From positions 1 to 62,109 of IMG/VR virus record IMGVR_UViG_3300045107_000421: a stretch of 62,109 nt of DNA; one strand, 5' to 3'. The notes under the pieces were generated by a model, which was not told the origin of the DNA, made no database searches, and worked only from the letters and a program-made list of their open reading frames with translations. The position numbers and the translations under genes were made by a program. Positions 8,436-62,109 of the stretch are shown one piece after another (positions within the stretch are counted from its first letter, which is position 1; every line of letters begins with the position of its first letter). The stretch is from a virus.

Positions 8436-10476
8436 ACTTAAATTAATAACAGAAAATGGGGTAACCGAAGAACTTGATTTTGATACTGAATATTATCAAT
8501 ATTTTGTTCCATTAGACGAAGATACTTCAAATCTCAACTTTACTATTAACATAAAAAATAATTTGCCAATTAATTCTCCCGGATACCCAAAAACTTTAGT
8601 CTTTAAAGTTAGCATGTCTCCTTCTATATTCCCATCAGATAATAAGCCTGTTTATATAAATGCAACCGTAAACAATAGCTCATCCGTAGTGTTCTCCTCT
8701 GATAATAATGCTATTTCTGGAGATTCATATATTGGAGTTATTTTTTCTGATGATATAGATTTAATAATAAATTTTAGCAATAGCGATGAATTACAAAATA
8801 AATTTCTTTTGGTTCCGTATTCAATAAAGCCACAAGAAGAAGCTAATATAAATTTTTCTGTTTATTATCAAGAAGTAGAATCTTCAGAGAATTTTTCAAG
8901 AAATAAATTTTACAGAATAGAAAAAATTTTATACGATTCTTCTAAATCTTTTGTCTCTATTTTAGAAAGCGATTATAATTTTTATTTGTCGAAGTTTTAT
9001 GAGTCTTATGCACTTGGGGATGTTTTATTCTTAATTAATCCAGGTTCATTACAAAATAATAATTGGGATATAAAAAATCTTCTCCTTCTTCAGTTAGTCG
9101 CGAATGGATTAGAAAAAGAAGCAAACGGATCTTTAAACTCATTTGTTTTAAACTATGAAAAAAATATACTTTCTAATTGTCTAATTTCTACAGTATCTTC
9201 TGGTACTTTTCCGTTCTTTTCTACAAATATAATATTTAATACATTAAATTTACAGACAAATTCAGTACTTGGAGTAATAAATTCAAAAGAATATTTTAAA
9301 AATCTTTTGTATTTTGTCATATATGAAATTACAAAGCCATATTTAATTAATCTTGGATATTATGCTACAACTGCATATAATAATGTTGAAAAAATATCAA
9401 ATTTACTTTATAGTCTTCTTTCAAATGGCTTTTCTAACAACGTAATTAAACAAAATATAGATCTAGCAAACGGAGTTTTTTATGGCGCAAATATTTCTGA
9501 AGATGAAAAAAATAAATATTTCGTTTCTTTTTATTTAATTTCTAAATTTTTTGTACAGTTTGTATATAAACTACAAAATAAAGGGTATATATCTACAATA
9601 CCCACATCACTAACTTCTTTAGAGAATTGGTTAGATTCTCATATTACTTATTATGTTGATGCGACCGAAAAAATAAATAACTTTAATAATCTTGATGATT
9701 CTTACGAATTAGATTTCATATTGACCCTTACTATATCTACAATCTTTTATTCTCTATCTGGTAAAGATATGTTTATATCTATTAATAACATTACATCTAT
9801 AACACCTTTATTATATGCATATTTTTCAAATTTAGCAAGATATATATCCGAAGTTTTTTATAATTTCAATGCAAATACCTTATCCTTAGTAAATTCTTCT
9901 ACAGATATCAACGCTTTGTTTAATAAGATTTTTATTAACGGTTTTTGGAACAGTTTTGCAACTAATACCCTTTTTAACATTAACTTAAGTTCACTTTTTA
10001 ATCAATTTGGTTTGACTAATCAATCAATGGTAATAGATTATTTAAAGGGAAAATATATAGTACAATTTACTACTTCATCTGCACCGACTAATATAAATAA
10101 CAAAATTTTATTAAATGGTTCTAATGTAGTCGCCGCATTTCCATATCCATATATAACTGCAAACCTTAGTAATAATTCGACTTTAGAGATAGATTCTAGA
10201 ATTTTTAGAGCAGTACAAAATCAATATGGGAATATTATTATTTATCCAAATTTATCTACTAAAACAAATTATTTAAATTATATACACACCTACATGAAAC
10301 TTTTATCAAGTAAAATTGAAAATTTATACTTCTTTTCAACAAATTCTACAACTATAAGCTTAGCTATAAGAAATTTAAATACAAATGCATATCTTACATA
10401 CATACTTCTTATTTTGTTAAATAATAAAGAGACTCAAAATAATTTTAATATTAAATTTTCTTTAAGCGCCATGTGA
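8428..10476 (+). CDS. Large fibre-like virion protein
   Basis: This 682-residue protein overlaps the preceding gene by 8 nt. Residues 1-150 look like a beta domain (ITENGVTEELDFDTEYYQYF). The central part is long, Asn/Phe/Tyr-rich and more helical. No motif or membrane segment is recognised. It ends with Met followed by TGA, one base before the tip (GTGACGAC) of a transposon remnant. The original C-terminus may therefore have been altered by the insertion. Probably a tail or fibre component by context. Confidence 0.55.
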   Translation: MFRLKLITENGVTEELDFDTEYYQYFVPLDEDTSNLNFTINIKNNLPINSPGYPKTLVFKVSMSPSIFPSDNKPVYINATVNNSSSVVFSSDNNAISGDSYIGVIFSDDIDLIINFSNSDELQNKFLLVPYSIKPQEEANINFSVYYQEVESSENFSRNKFYRIEKILYDSSKSFVSILESDYNFYLSKFYESYALGDVLFLINPGSLQNNNWDIKNLLLLQLVANGLEKEANGSLNSFVLNYEKNILSNCLISTVSSGTFPFFSTNIIFNTLNLQTNSVLGVINSKEYFKNLLYFVIYEITKPYLINLGYYATTAYNNVEKISNLLYSLLSNGFSNNVIKQNIDLANGVFYGANISEDEKNKYFVSFYLISKFFVQFVYKLQNKGYISTIPTSLTSLENWLDSHITYYVDATEKINNFNNLDDSYELDFILTLTISTIFYSLSGKDMFISINNITSITPLLYAYFSNLARYISEVFYNFNANTLSLVNSSTDINALFNKIFINGFWNSFATNTLFNINLSSLFNQFGLTNQSMVIDYLKGKYIVQFTTSSAPTNINNKILLNGSNVVAAFPYPYITANLSNNSTLEIDSRIFRAVQNQYGNIIIYPNLSTKTNYLNYIHTYMKLLSSKIENLYFFSTNSTTISLAIRNLNTNAYLTYILLILLNNKETQNNFNIKFSLSAM

Positions 10477-10477
10477 T

Positions 10478-10668
10478 GTGACGACTCCCAATTCTAAAGA
10501 ATTGGGCTTCTCGCAAGAAGCGAAGACTTTGTCAGAGCCTTAGCCAAGATATTTTGTGCTGCTGCAATATCCCGATGAAGGGTTGTGTTGCATTTGGTGC
10601 AGGTATAGGTACGTATCCAAATTTGTTTGCATTCATCCTACACATAAAGGTGTAGGCTTTCTGCAAAC
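10478..10668 (-). mobile_element. Deleted IS605-type element (MITE-like), tnpB-element ends only
   Basis: Read on the minus strand this has the left-end hairpin (GTTTGCA at 10625-10631 pairing with TGCAAAC at 10662-10668, inner stem CCTACAC/GTGTAGG). It then joins directly to the last ~40 codons of tnpB and ends with the right-end hairpin (CCCAATTC/GAATTGGG at 10487-10506) and the tip GTCGTCAC. It matches the right end of the full tnpB copy at 40106 almost base for base. About 1 kb of tnpB is missing, so it can move only if a transposase acts in trans. There are no target duplications, as expected for the family. Confidence 0.8.
10494..10622 (-). pseudogene. tnpB: tnpB 3'-end fragment
   Basis: On the minus strand the frame encodes the final part of the TnpB zinc finger and the third RuvC segment (IRTYTCTKCNTTLHRDIAAA) and ends in SSLLARSPIL followed by TAG, as in the intact copy near 40 kb. 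No start codon precedes it in frame; a TAG in the left-end hairpin blocks the frame. It is a remnant that probably persists because the DNA also encodes the guide-RNA scaffold and right end. Confidence 0.85.
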
Positions 10669-10679
10669 TGTGCTATAAT
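10653..10679 (+). promoter_or_regulatory. Phage promoter fused to IS left-end hairpin
   Basis: TAGGCTTTCTGCAAAC, then TGTGC, then TATAAT at 10674-10679 with a TGC extended -10. The upstream motif is at the same time the outer arm of the IS left-end hairpin, so promoter and mobile element share these bases. The ATG at 10691 lies 11 nt downstream of the -10 box, giving a very short or absent leader. Confidence 0.75.
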
Positions 10680-10690
10680 TGTTTTAGAAT

Positions 10691-11611
10691 ATGCCAGACA
10701 AAACATTTTCACTATTTTATGGACAAAATACGGTAATAGATCCAATGGGGTCTATAATAATAAATACAACATCTCAATTAAATCCAAATTATGAATGGGC
10801 GTATGTAAATGAATTAAATAGTATTGGACTTCCAGATCCTTCAAAAAAAGTAAATGTTCAATTAATAGGCTATAAAGATACAACATCATATAAGATAAAA
10901 TTTTTGGAATTTATAAAGCAATTTAATAATTCGAATCTATATGTAGGAAGTTCTGCATGCTTAACCTCTCCAGATAACATATCATGTAATGGATATGGGC
11001 CTTATATAATTAATGGAAAAAGATATTACATAGATTTTATAGTATTGTATTTTGTTAATACAACAGTAATAGATCCAAACGTAGATAACGAAAACAATTT
11101 TATACTTTCAAATCCAATTTTTTCTGTTGATACTTCAAGGTGTACACCAGATTATGGAATTTTTATTGCAGCACCTATAATACACCAAACCGTAATTAAT
11201 GATCCATCTAAACCAGCATATTTAAATGCTATAGCTGGTACCTCTAACTCCTACAATACTATGTTTCTTACAAATAATCCAACATATTCAAATCAGTTGG
11301 GATTTTTTAATCAAATTATTAAATATAGATTTTCTGTTCTTCAATCAAATAATACAAATGATTTTATGGATAATATAGACCCCACTACTGGAAATTTTGT
11401 TTTGGCTGTACAAAATTTAATCAATTATGGTCAAACAAGCATAACTTCGGTAAGTGAAAATAATGGCCCTGTCAATTTAAAACCACAATATAACAATGTC
11501 CCACCATTTAGAAACCAAACGTATTATCCATTTTTATTATTTAGATATATAAGTGAGGACGCTCCAACAAAAAGAGTACTTCTAAATTTCACATTTGCAC
11601 CATACGCCTAA
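10691..11611 (+). CDS. Virion-like protein, unknown family
   Basis: This 306-residue protein has no Shine-Dalgarno sequence; its ATG lies 11 nt after a promoter -10 box. It starts MPDKTFSLFYGQNTVIDP and is rich in Asn, Pro, Tyr, Thr and Ile. Three Cys occur (SSACLTSPDNISCNG near residue 98, and DTSRCTPD near 153). No family is recognised. The next gene starts 1 nt after its stop. The pair stands between fibre genes and the protease-scaffold gene, so a minor structural role is likely but unproven. Confidence 0.55.
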   Translation: MPDKTFSLFYGQNTVIDPMGSIIINTTSQLNPNYEWAYVNELNSIGLPDPSKKVNVQLIGYKDTTSYKIKFLEFIKQFNNSNLYVGSSACLTSPDNISCNGYGPYIINGKRYYIDFIVLYFVNTTVIDPNVDNENNFILSNPIFSVDTSRCTPDYGIFIAAPIIHQTVINDPSKPAYLNAIAGTSNSYNTMFLTNNPTYSNQLGFFNQIIKYRFSVLQSNNTNDFMDNIDPTTGNFVLAVQNLINYGQTSITSVSENNGPVNLKPQYNNVPPFRNQTYYPFLLFRYISEDAPTKRVLLNFTFAPYA

Positions 11612-30819: not shown

Positions 30820-31479
30820 TTAACTACACTTACTCCACCCGCAATCCAAACAAGTAAGACAGCCCTCCTCTATCTTAACATTATTTTCACCACAAGATGG
30901 GCAAGTAAAAGAATTTTTCTTTTTATTAATTTCTTTTTTCTCTTCTTTTATATCTGAATTATTATTTTGTTCTGATTCAAAGTTATTATTTGAAATAAGA
31001 GATTGAACAAAATCGTAATCGGAATAATAAGTAAGAACTTTAGATATTAGATCAGGGATACTTTTTATAAATTTACCTTTATCCTTACCAGGAAAACGAC
31101 ATATGTAAACTTGACCGGAATCAACTCCATCAAGGTGCTTAATTATCTTATCTATTGGAACCTTATACTTTAATAAGTTTGAAACCAATCTTGCCACCGT
31201 TTGAATAAATGCATTAATTTCTGGAGAAGTTGTAGAAGAATTTACAAAAAGTTCTACTAGTTCTTTATTTGAATTAAAATTCAGAACAAAATAATATGAA
31301 GCTTCATTGTATTTAATTCTAATTGTGAATCCTTTTACTATGTCTTCTCTTGTTAAAGTATCTTTTTGAGTTTCATTGCAGGATGTATTGTCTGTTGTTG
31401 AAAGATTTTCGATTTTTTCATTTGTTTTGCTGCTCTCTAAGAGCTTTACATTTAAAATTTTACTTGATATATCAACCAT
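30820..31479 (-). CDS. Class II ribonucleotide reductase C-terminal part (TSCPD domain plus zinc/redox tail), separate gene
   Basis: The product (~219 aa) has a region VKGFTIRIKYNEASYYFVL to FPGKDKGKFIKSIPDL typical of the TSCPD domain found at the C-terminus of class II (B12-dependent) reductases. It ends with six cysteines, CPSCG and GCLTCLDCGWSKC, the zinc ribbon and redox-tail ending of NrdJ. The reductase catalytic gene ends 9 nt upstream on the same strand without these parts, so the enzyme is split. The tail would re-reduce the catalytic cysteines in trans. ATG at 31479 has an AAAGG ribosome binding site; a GTG 6 nt earlier is possible. Confidence 0.8.
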   Translation of the reverse strand: MVDISSKILNVKLLESSKTNEKIENLSTTDNTSCNETQKDTLTREDIVKGFTIRIKYNEASYYFVLNFNSNKELVELFVNSSTTSPEINAFIQTVARLVSNLLKYKVPIDKIIKHLDGVDSGQVYICRFPGKDKGKFIKSIPDLISKVLTYYSDYDFVQSLISNNNFESEQNNNSDIKEEKKEINKKKNSFTCPSCGENNVKIEEGCLTCLDCGWSKCS

Positions 31480-33972: not shown

Positions 33973-34545
33973 TCAGTATTGTCCATCAGGAGGAGAAAAA
34001 ACGAGATTATCATTACAATTCCCGCAAGACATTTTGTAATCATATAAAAAGATTCCTAAAGAATCAACTATATCGTGAGAAATTTTTTTATTTAATGTGC
34101 TGCATGTTATTTCTTCAACTTTACTAATAACAAAGTCTTTATATAAAGGCTTTTTTATATTGGAAGACCCGAAAAGTTCTTTTTTCCAAATATGTGCTGG
34201 TATAAATTTTATATACTTAGCATTTAAATTAAAAACTTGCTGTAATGAAAATGCATAATTAATTCTTACTATAGTCATTAGTTCTTTTATTTTAAACCCC
34301 CCCTTCCTAAATCCAAAAACATCTGCTTCTAAAAAAATTCTATCTAGTTTTTTTATTTTATAATTTTCCTTTAATTCTTTAAAGTTTTTAACTAAAAACT
34401 TTCTGTGCCCGTCTATAGATACAAAATCTATTCCGTCAAAACTGTTTTTATATTTAATAATATCTAAATTTATGATGTTCAAATCCTCAATTAATGCGAG
34501 ACCTGTATTTCTTAAGGCAACGTCTAAAAATAGTGAGAAGCCCAT
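33973..34545 (-). CDS. RuvC-like Holliday-junction resolvase
   Basis: This 190-residue protein shows the RNase H-fold resolvase pattern. First strand SLFLDVALRNTGLAL has catalytic D8; strand RIFLEADVFG has E73 followed by a basic loop and helix (IVRINYAFSLQQVF); and helix ISHDIVDSLGIFLYDY carries the H157-D158 and D161 acids. It would cut branched DNA from replication or recombination, complementing the RecA and Rad52-like proteins encoded at 60 kb. The start lies 7 nt after a TATACT box, suggesting a leaderless message. A short Cys pair near the end (MSCGNCND) could bind metal. Confidence 0.75.
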   Translation of the reverse strand: MGFSLFLDVALRNTGLALIEDLNIINLDIIKYKNSFDGIDFVSIDGHRKFLVKNFKELKENYKIKKLDRIFLEADVFGFRKGGFKIKELMTIVRINYAFSLQQVFNLNAKYIKFIPAHIWKKELFGSSNIKKPLYKDFVISKVEEITCSTLNKKISHDIVDSLGIFLYDYKMSCGNCNDNLVFSPPDGQY

Positions 34546-34552
34546 TGTGTTT

Positions 34553-34581
34553 AGTATACACTATATGTTCTTACAATACAA
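34553..34581 (-). promoter_or_regulatory. Sigma70-like promoter of the resolvase gene
   Basis: Minus strand TTGTAT (plus ATACAA, 34576-34581), 17 bp, TATACT (plus AGTATA, 34553-34558), then 7 nt to the ATG. The -35 box touches the left end of the adjacent mini-element. Confidence 0.55.
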
Positions 34582-34609
34582 GTTTGCAGAAAGCCTGTGA
34601 TTTTAGGAG

Positions 34610-34636
34610 TAGGCTTTCTGCAAACTGTGCTATAAT
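34610..34636 (+). promoter_or_regulatory. Promoter inside mini-element
   Basis: TAGGCTTTCTGCAAAC, TGTGC, TATAAT at 34631-34636. Here the -10 box is on the inner side of the left-end hairpin, so the element would transcribe its own interior. Expected transcription start is near 34643. Confidence 0.65.
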
Positions 34637-34641
34637 AAACT

Positions 34642-34800
34642 TGTGCAAAAGAAGCACACCAAATCCTACAAAGCTGAAAATGCTGGTAGGTACTTGAATT
34701 ATAAGATTCAAGGTAATCATCGGGAAAATAAGAAAATACCGATAATGGCTTGGACGGAGCCTTCGTTAATTACGAGAAGCCCAATTCTTTAGAATTGGGA
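34642..34800 (+). ncRNA. Candidate structured RNA (omega-RNA-like) in mini-element
   Basis: Immediately after a good promoter there is a chain of hairpins. They are TGTGC/GCACA (34642-34658); CCTAC+AGC/GCT+GTAGG (34665-34690); CTTGAAT/ATTCAAG (34693-34712); ATCGG/CCGAT (34719-34743); GGCT/AGCC (34747-34761); and the right-end stem (34780-34799). CCAA (34659-34662) can pair with TTGG (34750-34753), closing a multi-branch junction. The 3' part equals the TnpB guide scaffold. A 49-codon GTG frame (34643-34792) ending in TnpB-like SPIL also exists, but the stems argue for RNA function. Pairing was judged by eye. Confidence 0.55.
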
Positions 34801-34823
34801 GTCGTCACGTGCGGTGTCGTCAC
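34801..34823 (+). repeat. Duplicated IS tip GTCGTCAC
   Basis: GTCGTCAC occurs at 34801-34808 as the right tip of the mini-element and again at 34816-34823 after 7 bp (GTGCGGT). The second copy supplies the TGA stop of the hydrolase gene on the minus strand. It may mark an older insertion or an imprecise event at the same place. Confidence 0.6.
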
Positions 34824-35527
34824 ATGTACCAGGTTCGATTATAAGAAATATCAAAATCTTTTTCTAAATCTATATTTACTCCATGCACAGAACCCTTACC
34901 AAGTGCAATGGTAAGTTTTCTATTTAATACATCATTTTTCCACTGTGGGTTAGCTAATTCAGCAATTACATTTGCTAGTATTTTATATTTTTCCCACTCA
35001 TTTTGCGGATTTTTAGTGCTTATATACCTAGTATATAAAATTTTATGATCTTTTCTTAGACCACCATTTTGTACAGTTATGTCAAAACATAAAGCTGCTC
35101 CTCTTTCTGTAGTAAAACCAAGTTCATTTAAACAATCGTTAGATTTTATAAAGTAAGGCTCCGCAGAAACTACAAATGCGGATATAACAGAAGGCTCTTT
35201 AGCTAGATCAGAAAATTTTTTAGACCAACCAGGAAGAACATTTCCATTTTTGCCTAAGATATTGTGTAAAACAAAATACCTCAATGAAGAATTTGAGGAC
35301 AAACTTTTAACAAAATCAGAACCAAGATATTTTTCCAAAACTTCTTGAGGAATCCTTTTTAAAACGTAAAAAAGAGTGCTTTGTCCAATATTCCACTGTA
35401 AAGGACCGTAAGACAAAATTTGTCCATCAAAATTTCCAGCAACCCTACCCCAATCTCGTGAAACTTCAAATTGAGATACTAGATCTATAAGTTTCTTTTT
35501 AAGTTCTAATTTAATTTTCTTTTCCAT
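34820..35527 (-). CDS. Probable lysozyme-like cell-wall hydrolase (endolysin candidate)
   Basis: This 235-residue soluble protein has no signal peptide. The stretch VAGNFDGQILSYGPLQWNIG (residues ~29-48), plus later FDITVQNGGLRKDH and ALGKGSVHGVNIDLEKDFDI, resembles lysozyme-superfamily glycosidases. In these a Glu/Asp-containing start is followed by '(Y/F)GxLQ(W/Y)N'; I cannot name the subfamily. As the only cell-wall-hydrolase-like gene in the window it is the best endolysin candidate. The ATG follows a TAAAAT box by 6 nt (leaderless). Its stop lies in transposon tip sequence, so the last residues may be altered. Confidence 0.55.
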   Translation of the reverse strand: MEKKIKLELKKKLIDLVSQFEVSRDWGRVAGNFDGQILSYGPLQWNIGQSTLFYVLKRIPQEVLEKYLGSDFVKSLSSNSSLRYFVLHNILGKNGNVLPGWSKKFSDLAKEPSVISAFVVSAEPYFIKSNDCLNELGFTTERGAALCFDITVQNGGLRKDHKILYTRYISTKNPQNEWEKYKILANVIAELANPQWKNDVLNRKLTIALGKGSVHGVNIDLEKDFDISYNRTWYM

Positions 35528-35533
35528 AGAAAT

Positions 35534-35559
35534 ATTTTACAAAATATGTTTGCAGAAAG
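35534..35559 (-). promoter_or_regulatory. Promoter of the hydrolase gene, variant spacing
   Basis: Minus strand CTTTCTGCAAAC (35548-35559), 8 bp, TAAAAT (plus ATTTTA, 35534-35539), then 6 nt to the ATG. The spacer is longer and the -10 weaker than in the other family members, so this is a tentative assignment. Confidence 0.45.
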
Positions 35560-38600: not shown

Positions 38601-38759
38601 TATTGTTATAATCTAAGAATTTTAGATACTTCTATACAAAATTTATATATTCCTTATCAACTTATAATTGACACGCCATCGCAAAGTTATAGAATGCTAA
38701 ACCTTCCCTATTCAATAAGCAATGAAATTTATGTGCTTGTTTTGCATCCAAACCCGTGA
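35634..38759 (+). CDS. Very large fibre/adhesin-like virion protein
   Basis: The frame opens at 35550, but codons before 35634 are the palindrome and promoter; ATG at 35634 (MRTLGCSDINEYTSPD) lies 7 nt after the -10 box. The 1041-residue product is Asn, Ser, Phe and Tyr rich, with long stretches of alternating hydrophobics and no membrane segment or enzyme motif. The composition is like the fibre genes at 4-10 kb. Its stop codon TGA is provided by the tip (GTGACGAT) of an inverted transposon remnant, so the native C-terminus may have been longer. Likely tail fibre or capsid decoration. Confidence 0.6.
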   Translation: MRTLGCSDINEYTSPDIIGNSSFVFPDREAIKIHTYPDVYYIKSPTWKRKGFVDITTKSTLKQVVSSFLLNNLTKEKVLPKFAIFDEINNKYIFIDPSNTGVDLSLVNLILDKLPDNHPVDNYYNGFSINYNIQDINKSIGVAESSFDSTYNTNLFNVGFSFAGILTIDIFVVVYGNDSIDPTYNFVSPSIGQNIYPKYYIYSLYLPFTYDGNYKANSDNIYETTINNFSISNFYYENSKYSNNLNDFYFLSLIPGKEIFYKINPEGPLTSLNFSKNITAAENMESVPIGTNKFFGYSPEVNNFGFNTGGQNGFKDFYTDNGAVFSNNNDTYCTIDVKTSNVPVKVCFHFDKDYLSFSGNFTYSFNTINNQNPLNKLGIFEFLNPQIDSGIFLTAKNFLDNFYPAIYNVISNFSTSTINSILSLGTYSSSLGSYSGSISLPSINFGRLFVYKALKLFVEDEFAQNDKKYYFNKNTYSNLKAWVLNNFYFSDLTSLSSNNKPVVVLYKNNNDKNNPNRFILYSYVPAYDQTPREFTLDIPDFNNFNDFISSLNSLTLNYLTQTYPGVDVSSSSWQSEDMMFLTQLPSHQDLSIVRNVFTHVPLVSLKNNSNALNEFLQFLSDIFNYGNKYSPTRFFSLFSYFGPSNINSDNEFTSKTDIISINNNIVDFIPPLDLPLSNYVNNNIKPYILNSEYFSFIDVGGYTTYLSEDTYVYDPLSVRIKFKGESFSKTQATNDASLSYPVFDFIFVEYLPIVFKDKNLNLNIKLNNNDYLSTSQILNYFNGRVSLAEFSSSPDKSPRSTVHVFRPYVFNIDVINPENQDLQDLIPATFIYTYNFSFKNLLNSSFDFNYYLPCYFSFLSQHLDICIENFLYNEEVISNDQYYINKFSSFSLNVTNYLISNKNAVINELLLDINNYNINSDNSLFISDKKLFPHGYKFESGKTYYIIALNADGDANLIINKSSGFDTRNDPLDSSTYEFIRPVFLTSTSYCYNLRILDTSIQNLYIPYQLIIDTPSQSYRMLNLPYSISNEIYVLVLHPNP

Positions 38760-38962
38760 CGATTCCCAGTTCTAAAGAACTGGGAATTGTAACCCTACAC
38801 CTTTAAAAAATTGAGGGGGTGTGGGGGAGCTATAATTCCCCGCTTTTCAAAGCGGGGATACATGGACTCCCTCACATAATACAATGGTAATAAATTTTTG
38901 GTATAATGTACAAGCGATTGAATAGTGTGACATTCCTGAATATGGTATAATAAAGGTCAGCA
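38756..38962. other. Nested transposon debris upstream of tnpB
   Basis: This 200-bp gap holds: an inverted right-end copy (GTGACGATT then stem ATTCCCAGTTC/GAACTGGGAAT, 38762-38787); a G-rich hairpin CCCTACACC/GGTGTGGGG (38793-38826); a perfect stem CCCCGCTTT/AAAGCGGGG (38838-38857) that looks like the right-end hairpin of a different IS200/605 subgroup; and two TGG-TATAAT boxes (38902-38907 and 38946-38951). It suggests at least two insertion events. Confidence 0.55.
38944..38951 (+). promoter_or_regulatory. Extended -10 promoter of tnpB
   Basis: TGG followed by TATAAT (38946-38951), 11 nt before the tnpB ATG; AAGG in between may bind ribosomes. A second TGG-TATAAT lies at 38902-38907. The 61 kb copy has TGA-TACAAT at the same 11-nt distance. 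Confidence 0.55.
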
Positions 38963-40090
38963 ATGATCAAGTCTTTCAAGTACCGACTGTATCCAACCAA
39001 GCCTCAGATCAAGGATTTAGAGAAAACCTTGTTTCTGTGTCGTCAATTGTACAATACTGCTTTGGAAAAAAGACGTGACGTGTACAAAAGTTCCAAAAAG
39101 ACCATTAGCCGTTACGAGCAAAATAGTCAACTTCCTAAACTAAAGGAAGAGTTTCCAGAATACAAGAATATACATAGTCAAGTTCTTCAGGATGTGCTAC
39201 AAAGGTTAGATAAAGCCTACCAAGGCTTTTTTAGGCGTATAAAGAAAGGTGAAACACCTGGTTTCCCAAGATTCAAGGGTGAAAATAGGTATGACAGCTT
39301 CACCTTTACTCAAGTAAGCAAAACAGGAATCAAGATTCAAGAAGGTAAAAACAGAGTTTTGGTTCATAAGATTGGTTCTATCAAATGCAAGTTTCACAGA
39401 CCGCTTGAAGGTCAAATAAAGACAGCTTCTATAAAAAGGGAGAATGATGAATGGTATGTCATTTTCACCTGTATCACAGAACCAAAAAAACTTCCTGTAA
39501 ACCAAGATGCAGTTGGAATAGACCTTGGTACTAACCCAAACTTCCTAACCACCTCTGACAGTGAAATGGTTCCTGCTCCTAGGTATTTCAAGAAGTCTGA
39601 AGATAGGCTTGCCAAAGCACAACAAATAGTTTCAAAAAGAAAACCTGGTAGCAACAGAAGAACCAAGGCTAAGAAACTAGTTGCCAAGGTACATCGAAAA
39701 ATAGCAAACCAAAGAAAGGATTTTCATCACAAGGTAGCAAAGGACTTGGTGAATAAATATGGAACCATAGTACACGAAGACCTAGATATAAAACAACTTG
39801 CTCAAACTAGAACAGCTAAAGGTATCCTAGATGCAGGTTGGGCACAGTTCCTAGCAATACTTGCCTACAAAGCGGAGGAAGCTGGTAGGCAAGTAATAAA
39901 AGTAGACCCAAAATACACAAGCCAAGATTGTCCTGTTTGTGGTAACAGAGAAAAACACCCACTTTGGATACGTACCTATACCTGCGCCAAATGCAATACA
40001 ACCCTTCATCGGGATATTGCAGCGGCACAAAATATCTTGGCTAAGGCTCGGACGGAGCCTTCGCTTCTTGCGAGAAGCCCAATTCTTTAG
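38963..40090 (+). CDS. tnpB: TnpB RNA-guided nuclease (IS605 OrfB)
   Basis: This 375-residue, apparently intact TnpB cleaves DNA under guidance of an RNA made from its own 3' end and is the ancestor family of Cas12. The N-terminal domain starts IKSFKYRLYPTKPQ. The RuvC catalytic acids are D187 (VGIDLGTN), E272 (VHEDLDI) and D351 (LHRDIAAAQN). The zinc finger has C323, C326, C341 and C344 (CPVCG, CAKCN). All key residues are present. It ends in LLARSPIL inside the right-end scaffold. No tnpA is nearby. A second, incomplete copy begins at 61268 and a 3' fragment lies at 10494-10622. Confidence 0.93.
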   Translation: MIKSFKYRLYPTKPQIKDLEKTLFLCRQLYNTALEKRRDVYKSSKKTISRYEQNSQLPKLKEEFPEYKNIHSQVLQDVLQRLDKAYQGFFRRIKKGETPGFPRFKGENRYDSFTFTQVSKTGIKIQEGKNRVLVHKIGSIKCKFHRPLEGQIKTASIKRENDEWYVIFTCITEPKKLPVNQDAVGIDLGTNPNFLTTSDSEMVPAPRYFKKSEDRLAKAQQIVSKRKPGSNRRTKAKKLVAKVHRKIANQRKDFHHKVAKDLVNKYGTIVHEDLDIKQLAQTRTAKGILDAGWAQFLAILAYKAEEAGRQVIKVDPKYTSQDCPVCGNREKHPLWIRTYTCAKCNTTLHRDIAAAQNILAKARTEPSLLARSPIL

Positions 40091-40106
40091 AATTGGGAGT
40101 CGTCAC
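40007..40106 (+). ncRNA. Probable TnpB guide RNA (omega/reRNA) scaffold
   Basis: In known TnpB systems the guide RNA overlaps the 3' end of tnpB and runs through the right end into the flank. Here CATCGGGA (40007-40014), the stem GGCTC/GAGCC region, GCTTCT/AGAAGC and CCCAATTC/GAATTGGG are conserved in all copies, including tnpB-less ones. The guide would begin at 40107 and read TCGTAGGTTTTCTGCAAACG, which is the phage promoter motif. The 5' boundary is arbitrary. Confidence 0.5.
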
Positions 40107-40109
40107 TCG

Positions 40110-40135
40110 TAGGTTTTCTGCAAACGTGCTATAAT
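40110..40135 (+). promoter_or_regulatory. Phage promoter directly after tnpB right end
   Basis: TAGGTTTTCTGCAAAC, GTGC, TATAAT (40130-40135), starting 3 bp after the transposon tip. ATG at 40143 follows after 7 nt. The spacer is 4 bp instead of 5. Confidence 0.8.
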
Positions 40136-40142
40136 AAATTAA

Positions 40143-45326: not shown

Positions 45327-46799
45327 CTACTTTCTCTCCTTATATGAATCAACTTTTAGTCCGTTGAAAACCTCTTCTTTTATTTTTTTCAAAAAACCAT
45401 CGTACTTTCCATTTAGTATATTATTAAAAACAACTTCTTTGCCGTAGGTTTTATAATCTTCTTGTACAACTTTGTTTAATTCTTGTAATGTTTTTGATTT
45501 ATTAGCTGTAAATGTATATGGTTGAGGACAAAAATCTCTTCTATTTCTAAACGATTGAAAGGAGTTGTCTGAGGGCTTTTTATCTGACTCTATAGAATTA
45601 CCTACGTCCTGTTTAGCTCTTTCCCAAGTGTCTTCAATTAGTTTTTCGTTTGCACTCAACCATTTTTGTGTATTCTCAAAACCACTTAACCCCGCAAGCT
45701 CAAACTGACTTGAAAAGCTCAAAGAAAGAAATGCATTATCCCAACATAAATTCATGTTAGTAGATACAGCAAAAAGAGGGTCTTCATAAAAGTCTGTAAA
45801 GAACTTTCTGACCCAATCAGTTAAATATTCTTTCATTTTTTCCCACTGCTCCTGGTATTCTTTAATTCTTGCTTCATTAGTCCATCTAATACCAGCTGGC
45901 TCTGCTTTAAAATCAAATACTGTTCCAGAATTCATATAATCAAACCCAAAAAACGCATGAATTAAATCATTTAAAGGAAGCAAATAAGGGTGTAAAAGTT
46001 CCCAATAATAATCACTGTTCCAAACTCCAGAAGCTAGTTCAGCCATAATTTCGAAATCTACGTAACTTCCTAAAGGCAACCATTGCAGAGAATTTTGATT
46101 ATGCGACAACTCATGTTGTACTACTGTGGGTTTTCCATATAGGCAATCATAAAACATAGCCTCTGGGTTTAAGAAAACCCTAGAAACTCCTCCTCTATAA
46201 AAAGATAGATATACCATACCCCAAGGTTCCATTGGAGTAATATAAATTTCATTTGGTACAAAATCAGACTTGTCAAGAATATATGGCAAAAACATTAAAT
46301 CTCTTAAAGTTACTGTACCTAATTGTGAATCATTTATTTCTTTGTTGTATTTTTCAAAATCTTTAATTGGAACGAAATTAGAATAAACCTTATAAAGGTT
46401 ATCAACTCCATCTTTTAAATACTGAACTATAAAATCCGAAAAATCTTCTAAATCTTTTTCTGAAACCTCTTTTACTCCTCGTGCAGTTTTATAATAAATT
46501 TTGTTATTTATTTTTTGATAGTCTCTAAAATATATTTTAAATTGCTTTCCATATAAAATCCTGCTATTCCACATTCCTTCGCCAACATCATTAGGCCAAG
46601 TACTAAAAGTTTCGTTCCAAATTTGCCTAGTTTGTGATAAATAAAATTTTTCTAATTTTCTTAATTCAATTAAATCTTTAGTAGGGGCGCACTTCTCTAA
46701 TCCCAATTCTTTTATGTAATGTGGAGGATCAAAATTTGCAAAATTCTGCGCAAACGATACTCCAACCAACACCAAAAAGCTTATTAGTGTTCTTACCAT
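45327..46799 (-). CDS. Secreted zinc metalloprotease-like protein
   Basis: The frame opens at 46817, but ATG at 46799 gives a clean signal peptide (VRTLISFLVLVGVSFAQ, cleavage after about residue 18). In the 490-residue product, VVQHELSHNQ holds the zincin motif H229-E230-L-S-H233. A downstream FEIMAELASG supplies E250 or E254 as a possible third zinc ligand, the arrangement of gluzincins. The rest is mostly helical with conserved aromatic residues. A secreted protease is unusual in a phage; it could act on host envelope or released proteins. Immediately followed by the lipoprotein gene (2-nt gap). Confidence 0.7.
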   Translation of the reverse strand: MVRTLISFLVLVGVSFAQNFANFDPPHYIKELGLEKCAPTKDLIELRKLEKFYLSQTRQIWNETFSTWPNDVGEGMWNSRILYGKQFKIYFRDYQKINNKIYYKTARGVKEVSEKDLEDFSDFIVQYLKDGVDNLYKVYSNFVPIKDFEKYNKEINDSQLGTVTLRDLMFLPYILDKSDFVPNEIYITPMEPWGMVYLSFYRGGVSRVFLNPEAMFYDCLYGKPTVVQHELSHNQNSLQWLPLGSYVDFEIMAELASGVWNSDYYWELLHPYLLPLNDLIHAFFGFDYMNSGTVFDFKAEPAGIRWTNEARIKEYQEQWEKMKEYLTDWVRKFFTDFYEDPLFAVSTNMNLCWDNAFLSLSFSSQFELAGLSGFENTQKWLSANEKLIEDTWERAKQDVGNSIESDKKPSDNSFQSFRNRRDFCPQPYTFTANKSKTLQELNKVVQEDYKTYGKEVVFNNILNGKYDGFLKKIKEEVFNGLKVDSYKERK

Positions 46800-61178: not shown

Positions 61179-61202
61179 ATTATAGAACAGTTTGCAGAAA
61201 AC
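61179..61202 (-). promoter_or_regulatory. Phage promoter of the recombination operon, beside IS left end
   Basis: Minus strand GTTTTCTGCAAAC (plus 61190-61202), TGTTC, TATAAT (plus ATTATA, 61179-61184). The upstream motif is the outer arm of the IS left-end hairpin. It leads to a 24-nt leader with ribosome binding site before the Rad52-like gene. Confidence 0.8.
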
Positions 61203-62109
61203 CCACACCTTTAGGTGTAGGATGAATGCAAACGCGTACTATTAATATGATACAATATAGTTTAGTAATGATCAAGTCCTTCAAATACCGTCTGTATCCA
61301 ACCAAGCCTCAGATCAAGGATTTAGAGAAAACCTTGTTTCTGTGTCGTCAACTGTACAATACTGCTTTGGAAAAAAGAAAGGAATTATACAAAACCCACA
61401 AGAAAAGCATTGGTTACTATGAACAAGCTAACCAACTACCTAGTTTGAAGGAAGAGCGTCCAGAATACAAGAATGTAAATGCACAGGTTCTTCAGGATGT
61501 ATTGAAAAGGGTAGACAAAGCCTACCAAGGGTTTTTTAGGCGTATCAAAAAAGGTGAAACACCAGGATATCCAAGGTTCAAAGGCGAAGGAAGATATGAC
61601 AGCTTTACTTTTCCTCAAGCAAACGTAACAGGAATCAAGATTCAAGAAGGTAAAAACAGAGTTTTGGTGCATAAGATTGGTTCTATCAAATGCAAGTTTC
61701 ACAGACCGCTTGAAGGTCAAATAAAGACAGCTTCTATAAAAAGGGAGAATGATGAATGGTATATAATTTTCACCTGTATCACAGAACCAAAAAAACTTCC
61801 TGTAAACCAAGATGCAGTTGGAATAGACCTTGGTACTAACCCAAACTTCCTAACCACCTCTGACAGTGAAATGGTTCCTGCTCCTAGGTATTTCAAGAAG
61901 TATGAAAAAACACTCTCCAAAGCACAGAAAATAGTTTCAAAAAGAAAACCTGGTAGCAACAGAAGGAACAAAGCTAAAAGACTGGTTGCTAAAATCCACA
62001 AGAAAATAGCAAACCAAAGAAAGGATTTTCATCACAAGGTAGCAAAAGACTTGGTGAATAAATATGGAACCATAGTACACGAAGACCTAGATATAAAACA
62101 ACTCGCCCA
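61190..62109 (+). mobile_element. Second tnpB-only IS605-type element, cut by window end
   Basis: The left-end hairpin GTTTGCAGAAAA, CCCACACC, TTTA, GGTGTAGG, then TGCAAAC (61190-61234) is followed by TGA-TACAAT (61251-61256) and tnpB at 61268. The right end lies beyond the window. This is the only copy with the canonical left hairpin in front of a long tnpB frame, so it best defines the autonomous-like form. Confidence 0.8.
61268..62109 (+). CDS. tnpB: TnpB RNA-guided nuclease, second copy (truncated by window end)
   Basis: The open frame runs from ATG at 61268 through the last base (280 codons, no stop). It starts IKSFKYRLYPTKPQIKDLEK like the first copy. The first RuvC Asp (VGIDLGTN) and the second acid segment (VHEDLDIKQLA) are present; the zinc finger and third acid are outside the window. 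Identity with the first copy comes in blocks: near-perfect at DNA level over about 61650-61910 and the last ~110 bases, but clearly diverged near codons 40-70 and 210-245. This implies recombination between copies. TACAAT precedes the ATG by 11 nt. Confidence 0.9.
   Translation, partial: MIKSFKYRLYPTKPQIKDLEKTLFLCRQLYNTALEKRKELYKTHKKSIGYYEQANQLPSLKEERPEYKNVNAQVLQDVLKRVDKAYQGFFRRIKKGETPGYPRFKGEGRYDSFTFPQANVTGIKIQEGKNRVLVHKIGSIKCKFHRPLEGQIKTASIKRENDEWYIIFTCITEPKKLPVNQDAVGIDLGTNPNFLTTSDSEMVPAPRYFKKYEKTLSKAQKIVSKRKPGSNRRNKAKRLVAKIHKKIANQRKDFHHKVAKDLVNKYGTIVHEDLDIKQLA

Follow-up and report, generated by a model that had tools for sequence, protein, structure and literature searches.

What could a mini-element that has kept an insertion sequence (IS) right end and a TnpB guide-RNA scaffold, and has no gene of its own, be doing in a phage genome? 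The question is raised by positions 34582–34808 of a virus contig of 62,109 nt (IMGVR_UViG_3300045107_000421, positions 1 to 62,109; hereafter the window), which contain neither a tnpB ORF nor a TnpA ORF. A sequence-only reading had taken this locus for either a stand-alone guide-RNA gene or a HEARO-like mobile RNA, with both IS ends intact and a middle that is not tnpB; the last statement was borne out by a base-by-base check.

Matches of the baseplate protein encoded in the window were confined to the Thermus phages phiYS40, TMA, and YS40_Isch (44–45%), and the ribonucleotide reductase was 78% identical to that of a second contig, G001, the closest phage contig. The nearest relatives of the window TnpB (38963–40090) were those of Calidithermus, Meiothermus, and Thermus (61–66%) or, among phages, those of the Thermus phages TSP4, phiLo, and T72 (64–67%). 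Judging from these matches, the host of the phage is probably a member of the Thermaceae or a relative. The full IS copy at 38800–40106 (+) comprises a canonical left end (38800–38875), tnpB (38963–40090), and an omegaRNA scaffold (40045–40106). Its TnpB has intact RuvC motifs (GIDLG at 185, HEDL at 271, and HRD at 349) and zinc-binding cysteines and matches solved TnpB structures, and this copy is a candidate supplier of TnpB for the mini-element. For the 62-kb record, which may be partial, a TldR guide locus was rejected because TnpB keeps GIDLG, HEDL, and HRD, and no Y1 transposase was found in it. The guide position of the full copy (40107–40136, TCGTAGGTTTTCTGCAAACG) is the phage promoter motif itself, with sites of two to three mismatches at other promoters; a degenerate, inverted right-end hairpin at 38755–38793 overlaps the stop of a 1069-aa gene and adjoins the tnpB left end.

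Layout, promoter, and ends of the mini-element

The TATAAT box and the series of stems described from the letters alone were present on base-by-base inspection, all on the + strand. The stems are TGTGC/GCACA (34642–34646/34654–34658); CCTAC/GTAGG plus AGC/GCT, here called hairpin H (34665–34690, CCTAC-AAAGCTGAAAATGCTG-GTAGG), which is kept from the tnpB coding sequence at 39859–39894; CTTGAAT/ATTCAAG (34693–34712); scaffold helix S1, ATCGG/CCGAT (34718–34743), which replaces UCGGGA/UCUUGG of tnpB in register with the tnpB S1; and GGCT/AGCC (34747–34761), followed by TCGT/ACGA and then an 8-bp CCCAATTC/GAATTGGG hairpin. The core omegaRNA scaffold (34747–34808, +) consists of S2 (GGCTTGGACGGAGCC), S3 (TCGT/ACGA), S4 (CCCAATTC/GAATTGGG), and the IS right end (GTCGTCAC). 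Neither the predicted fold nor the scaffold model supported the closing pair CCAA/TTGG that had been proposed, and it was rejected because TTGG sits in the conserved scaffold stem GGCTTGGACGGAGCC. The two blocks said to be common to the mini-element and the tnpB 3′ end were found in both, CATCGGGA at 34718 and 40007 and GGACGGAGCCTTCG at 34752 and 40050. The predicted multi-hairpin transcript, to be followed by the guide, would extend over 34643–34808 (+), with its start placed from the position of the −10 motif, and has a predicted fold of −49.4 kcal/mol (z = −4.7 versus its shuffles). The same stretch holds an open frame of 49 codons (34643–34789, +; SYKAENAGR..., ..WTEPSLITRSPIL), a residual tnpB frame according to tblastn against tnpB, which is probably not the product of the locus.

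By analogy with TnpB omegaRNAs, the guide segment is expected in the flanking DNA at 34809–34828 (+, GTGCGGTGTCGTCACATGTA), within the 3′ end of a gene; the TMA homologue of this gene carries a peptidoglycan-binding annotation. When the window, G001, and TMA were searched with up to three mismatches in 16 nt, the only match of this guide was its own locus. Targeting of a related phage was rejected, with no site in TMA or G001, as was a site in phiLo, a single three-mismatch chance match on the repeated GTCGTCAC. Two copies of GTCGTCAC stand 15 nt apart at 34801–34823 (GTCGTCACGTGCGGTGTCGTCACATG), which gives the appearance of two nested right-end tips. The tnpB-less fragments in 33973–35527 and 10476–10691 lie between genes that are apparently not neighbours in TMA: around the mini-element, a ribonucleotide-reductase block adjoins a TMA_054 homologue, and around the relic, the baseplate region lies near a head protease. 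These fragments are possibly at rearrangement junctions.

The promoter (TTTCTGCAAACTGTGCTATAAT, 34615–34636, +) is of the phage type, with an extended −10 TGCTATAAT at 34628–34636. Its motif, TTTCTGCAAACTnTGCTATAAT, occurs seven times in the window, against 0.01 expected, the mini-element promoter being one of the seven, and the copies point toward RTG ORF starts, mostly 4–11 nt downstream. This promoter is identical at 22 of 26 positions to that of the YS40_Isch mini-element described below. A −10 directly before an ORF is a documented leaderless pattern in Deinococcus-Thermus (PMC12340547). The promoter motif GTAGGTTTTCTGCAAACTnTGCTATAAT with leaderless starts was noted at 2124, 10658, 11972, 23198(−), 34615, 35605, 40109, 56063(−), and 61200(−); at three sites the motif falls on an arm of the GTTTGCAG palindrome, and a left-end insertion at TTAT would therefore give the neighbouring gene an outward promoter.

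Of the two ends claimed to be intact, the right one is so, and the left one departs from the canonical form. The mini-element begins with a palindrome (GTTTGCAGAAAGCCT...AGGCTTTCTGCAAAC, 34582–34625, +) with perfect 15-bp arms, and this left hairpin (GTTTGCAGAAAGCC...GGCTTTCTGCAAAC) differs from the canonical IS left end GAGGGGGTGTGGGGGAGCTATAATCCCC..., which is present in Thermaceae, in Thermus phages, and before the window tnpB at 38963 (38800–38875), and which in the Thermaceae and Thermus phages reads TTA(G)-AGAAAAGAGGGGGTGTGGGGGAGCTATAATCCCC...GGGGATACATGGACTCCCCCAC. Instead of it, the mini-element, the relic at 10478–10668(−), and the truncated tnpB at 61190 carry a GTTTGCAGAAA-CC...TGCAAAC palindrome, which caps the tnpB fragments at 10668(−) and 61190(+) in the same orientation; a lone copy of the palindrome occurs at 35548. 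The relic is a second tnpB-less derivative (10478–10668, −), in which the left palindrome is joined to the final 144 nt of tnpB and the right end, and its scaffold is decaying (54.9 bits). The third copy (61190–62109, +) consists of the left palindrome and a second tnpB, of which the contig end has left only the 5′ part. Because the palindromes at 10668(−) and 61190 follow TTAT and an AG(A/C)ACA tip, resembling the canonical TTA(G/T)-AGAAAAG, the palindrome is perhaps a lineage-specific left end. That of the mini-element may be either such a phage-lineage left end or a promoter-associated palindrome.

Covariation of the scaffold and of hairpin H

The 62-nt scaffold of the mini-element shares 92% identity with the 3′ end of tnpB, and its S2–S4 part ends at the IS right end, as does the scaffold of a TnpB omegaRNA. 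The scaffold helices covary. From an alignment of 14 tnpB 3′ ends and derivatives, RNAalifold recovered the same four helices with no structure supplied, and when pairs were counted on a hand-written structure, 97.7% of the cells were paired with 27 double changes, compared with 25–63% paired and 0–4 double changes in slid-partner controls. A covariance model (CM), R1, built only from tnpB-linked scaffold copies, scored the mini-element at 70.0 bits over its full length (E = 1e−11), next to 71.0 bits for the intact tnpB copy at 40045 and 54.9 bits for the decaying copy at 10478. The five substitutions that separate the mini-element scaffold from that of tnpB broke none of the 19 pairs: there was one C-G to U-G wobble, one compensatory C-G to U-A change (two bases), and two loop changes. 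Because random sets of five substitutions also left every pair unbroken in 2.9% of trials, the absence of broken pairs alone is modest evidence against decay. S1 of the mini-element is shortened; its 5′ strand is kept and its 3′ strand is altered relative to tnpB, and five of the six pairs still form.

Hairpin H is retained from the tnpB coding sequence (AYKAEEAGR) in two phage elements, the mini-elements of the window and of YS40_Isch. In tnpB genes, the corresponding stem-AAAGCGGAGGAAGCTG-stem hairpin (KAExAG codons) covaries in bacterial and archaeal TnpBs (window 39859–39894; L009–L100). Across the TnpB clade, the flanks of H showed 57 double-changed cells and were 92% paired, versus 23–47% when slid, in a set biased by a filter for at least three pairs; in the unfiltered test of 50 distinct loci, 6.66 of eight pairs formed, versus a shuffled mean of 4.46 and a maximum of 5.2. 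This covariation suggests that tnpB mRNA carries, within the coding sequence and upstream of the scaffold, a conserved RNA hairpin. Inhibition mediated by its own mRNA has been described for AmaTnpB (PMC10278001). H and that inhibitory region both lie near RuvC-II, but their positions do not coincide, and a link between H and AmaTnpB mRNA inhibition is a lead only.

Related elements in Thermus phages and Thermaceae

The whole mini-element had no blastn match among annotated phages, pattern scans of viral contigs (right-end scaffold, mini-element core, left palindrome, and H plus scaffold) found no second copy, and G001 contained no such element. Phage relatives were reached solely through a search with a GC-rich consensus scaffold, which revealed tnpB-less omegaRNA mini-elements, unannotated or mis-annotated, in YS40_Isch and phiLo. 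The YS40_Isch element (about 91650–91900, −) runs from a canonical left end through TGTGCTATAATAAGTATGTGC and the hairpin ACCTACAAAGAGGAAGAAGCTGGTAGGT to GGCTTGGACGGAGCCTTCG and the right end. Its order, left end, TGTGCTATAATAA-N4-TGTGC, hairpin H, GGCTTGGACGGAGCCTTCG, and right end, matches that of the mini-element of the window module by module. A gene-start annotation overlaps it. YS40_Isch has one scaffold, and because the sole TnpB relative in this phage is 36% identical, a cognate TnpB would need another source. No scaffold was found in phiYS40 or TMA, and these phages offered no clean target site as an empty site for the YS40_Isch element: their right flank aligns to the exact element end, and the left flank is replaced. 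In phiLo, three mini-elements have both a left and a right end. One, at 150419–150650, is annotated as phiLo_140 (150415–150591), a 58-aa hypothetical protein; another, at 84076–84252, has a −10 right before the scaffold; and the third lies at 45561–45694. A −10 motif stands upstream of the scaffold in two of the three, and a copy at 31334 has the right end only.

Among Thermaceae chromosomes, scaffolds were found in 32 of the 50 genomes surveyed. In 11 genomes with 84 scaffolds of at least about 70 bits, TnpB was directly upstream of 37 and absent from that position in 47; many of these 47 solo scaffolds were at draft contig ends, and because drafts break at repeats, it is uncertain how large their share really is. 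In T. parvatiensis, whose chromosome is complete, three tnpB-less copies score above 100 bits. The Thermaceae mini-elements comprise a left end, an extended −10, a structured RNA, the scaffold, and the right end. Their commonest RNA module (ACCTTGAAACTTGGAGTAGGGGGTTCCATCGGGTAGTCCGATGGG...GGAGTCAAGGT, 138 nt queried; L157, L163, L164, L167, L168, L178, L182, and L186) lies between the promoter and the omegaRNA scaffold, was found in 16 of the 50 genomes, and shows compensatory changes in several helices. T. scotoductus has at least 13 copies of it, 99–100% identical and at different loci. The module matched nothing in Rfam or in phage records, and had only a partial match in one Allomeiothermus plasmid. 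The mini-element of the window is single copy, whereas its Thermaceae relatives are multi-copy and near-identical.

Explanations for the locus and comparison with known systems

The best-supported reading of these sequences is that the locus would be a stand-alone guide-RNA gene feeding TnpB made elsewhere. On this point the sequence-only reading stood, given the intact scaffold, the promoter of its own, and the tnpB-less homologues in Thermus phages and Thermaceae; its HEARO alternative was not supported. No transposase or accessory gene lies between the ends, as in PATE/MITE elements, and we consider it reasonably probable that the locus is a non-autonomous, tnpB-deleted IS200/IS605 derivative of this type, supplying an omegaRNA for TnpB in trans. 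The parts kept by such an element, through which it would act, are a promoter, the omegaRNA scaffold of TnpB, and the right end. Transcription by RNA polymerase would start just after TGCTATAAT, at about 34643, giving a transcript of about 166 nt plus flanking sequence, of which the last 62 (or about 91) nt would be the TnpB scaffold and the adjoining 16–20 nt of flanking DNA would become the guide. TnpB acting in trans, for example from 38963 of the same phage, would trim and bind this RNA and cut DNA matching the guide, that is, copies of the locus without the element. Such cutting would help the mini-element to persist or spread with no protein of its own, and its movement would need TnpA in trans.

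The locus might instead be what an internal deletion left of an IS605 tnpB copy, an inert relic that has a phage promoter upstream by chance and is still undecayed. Pieces of the tnpB frame do remain in it, the relic at 10478–10668 shows that such deletions occur and decay, and the mini-element and its neighbours lie at a junction unlike the gene order of TMA and G001. Outside the scaffold, however, the mini-element has diverged far from tnpB, yet all scaffold pairs are kept, one of them by compensatory change, and S1 has been re-formed by changed bases; moreover, YS40_Isch retains the same modules, and the Thermaceae relatives are multi-copy and near-identical. We therefore regard a relic as rather unlikely, although it deserves serious weight.

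It is very improbable that the locus encodes a small protein of 49 aa whose leaderless translation begins at the GTG at 34643. This GTG is 6 nt past the −10, as in neighbouring phage genes, the frame is open for 49 codons, and leaderless genes are common in Deinococcus-Thermus (PMC12340547); the frame, however, is the inherited tnpB frame, three of the four changed scaffold codons are non-synonymous with the base pairs kept, there is no Pfam match, and in YS40_Isch, phiLo, and the Thermaceae the RNA is kept and the peptide is not. Homologues that conserve the 49-codon frame and lose the stems had been named as evidence against an RNA; the relatives keep the stems and the scaffold instead, the Thermaceae mini-elements do not have the frame, and the YS40_Isch peptide between the common blocks is unrelated. 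A mobile structured RNA of an independent kind, HEARO-like or other, with no relation to TnpB would account for the several hairpins upstream of the scaffold and the lack of a protein gene, yet it is hardly credible: the 3′ third of the mini-element is TnpB scaffold according to the CM, and an Rfam search gave no match at gathering score in the window and no relevant match at E ≤ 1 for the mini-element or its relatives. An IStron was also rejected, as the window and the relatives tested matched no group I or II intron family in Rfam.

More interest attaches to the wider class behind the mini-element than to this one locus. A TnpB guide RNA normally arises as a by-product of tnpB mRNA, and guides are therefore tied to the nuclease gene. 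A promoter, a scaffold, and ends alone would uncouple the guide from the nuclease supply, like CRISPR arrays and cas genes, and protein-less transposons would profit from the TnpB of a relative, the host, or a phage. We tentatively suggest, as a possibility short of an even chance, that protein-less, promoter-driven TnpB guide-RNA elements form a distinct class that is actively spreading in Thermaceae and jumbo phages with TnpB in trans (the host enzyme in YS40_Isch-type phages), and that extra RNA parts, such as the 138-nt module and hairpin H, control the processing or activity of the TnpB complex. The many near-identical loci with differing guides in Thermus phages and T. scotoductus make a direct test possible, and the covarying hairpin of tnpB mRNA and the 138-nt module, neither of which is in Rfam, would provide new handles on TnpB RNA biology.

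Stand-alone, trans-acting IscB omegaRNAs were reportedly described by Altae-Tran et al. in 2021; like the mini-element, these are guide loci without a nuclease gene, and unlike it, they belong to IscB and are a different RNA. The usual TnpB omegaRNA is cut from tnpB mRNA, whereas that of the mini-element is predicted to be transcribed without tnpB. In both, the scaffold is the tnpB 3′ end plus the right end and the guide is flanking DNA, as in the omegaRNA/reRNA of IS200/IS605 elements (PMC8612924, PMC10278001), for which processed forms of 79–466 nt have been reported (PMC8612924, PMC10278001). A literature search that covered mainly open-access papers turned up no description, for Thermus or its phages, of elements that consist of a TnpB guide RNA alone and carry a promoter for it, which does not prove novelty. 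The earlier view that no phage element of this kind was described needs qualifying, since PATEs are known in bacteria (PMC7290912) and two Thermus phages carry unannotated mini-elements. In Halanaerobium hydrogeniformans, a PATE-like element has retained 58 nt of tnpB together with a complete right end, and PATEs share with the mini-element a left-end hairpin, the last part of tnpB, the whole right end, the lack of a gene, and an expected movement in trans (PMC7290912). The sections of that paper covered here do not treat the PATE as a guide-RNA gene, and the mini-element differs from what they describe in having a promoter directly before the RNA, a scaffold that is maintained and covarying, and a phage location (PMC7290912). 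Close counterparts are the phiLo, YS40_Isch, and Thermaceae mini-elements, which resemble that of the window in their scaffold, right end, and promoter-RNA-scaffold order; unlike it, most of them have the canonical GAGGGGG left end, and those of the Thermaceae often contain a large conserved RNA module that the mini-element of the window does not have.
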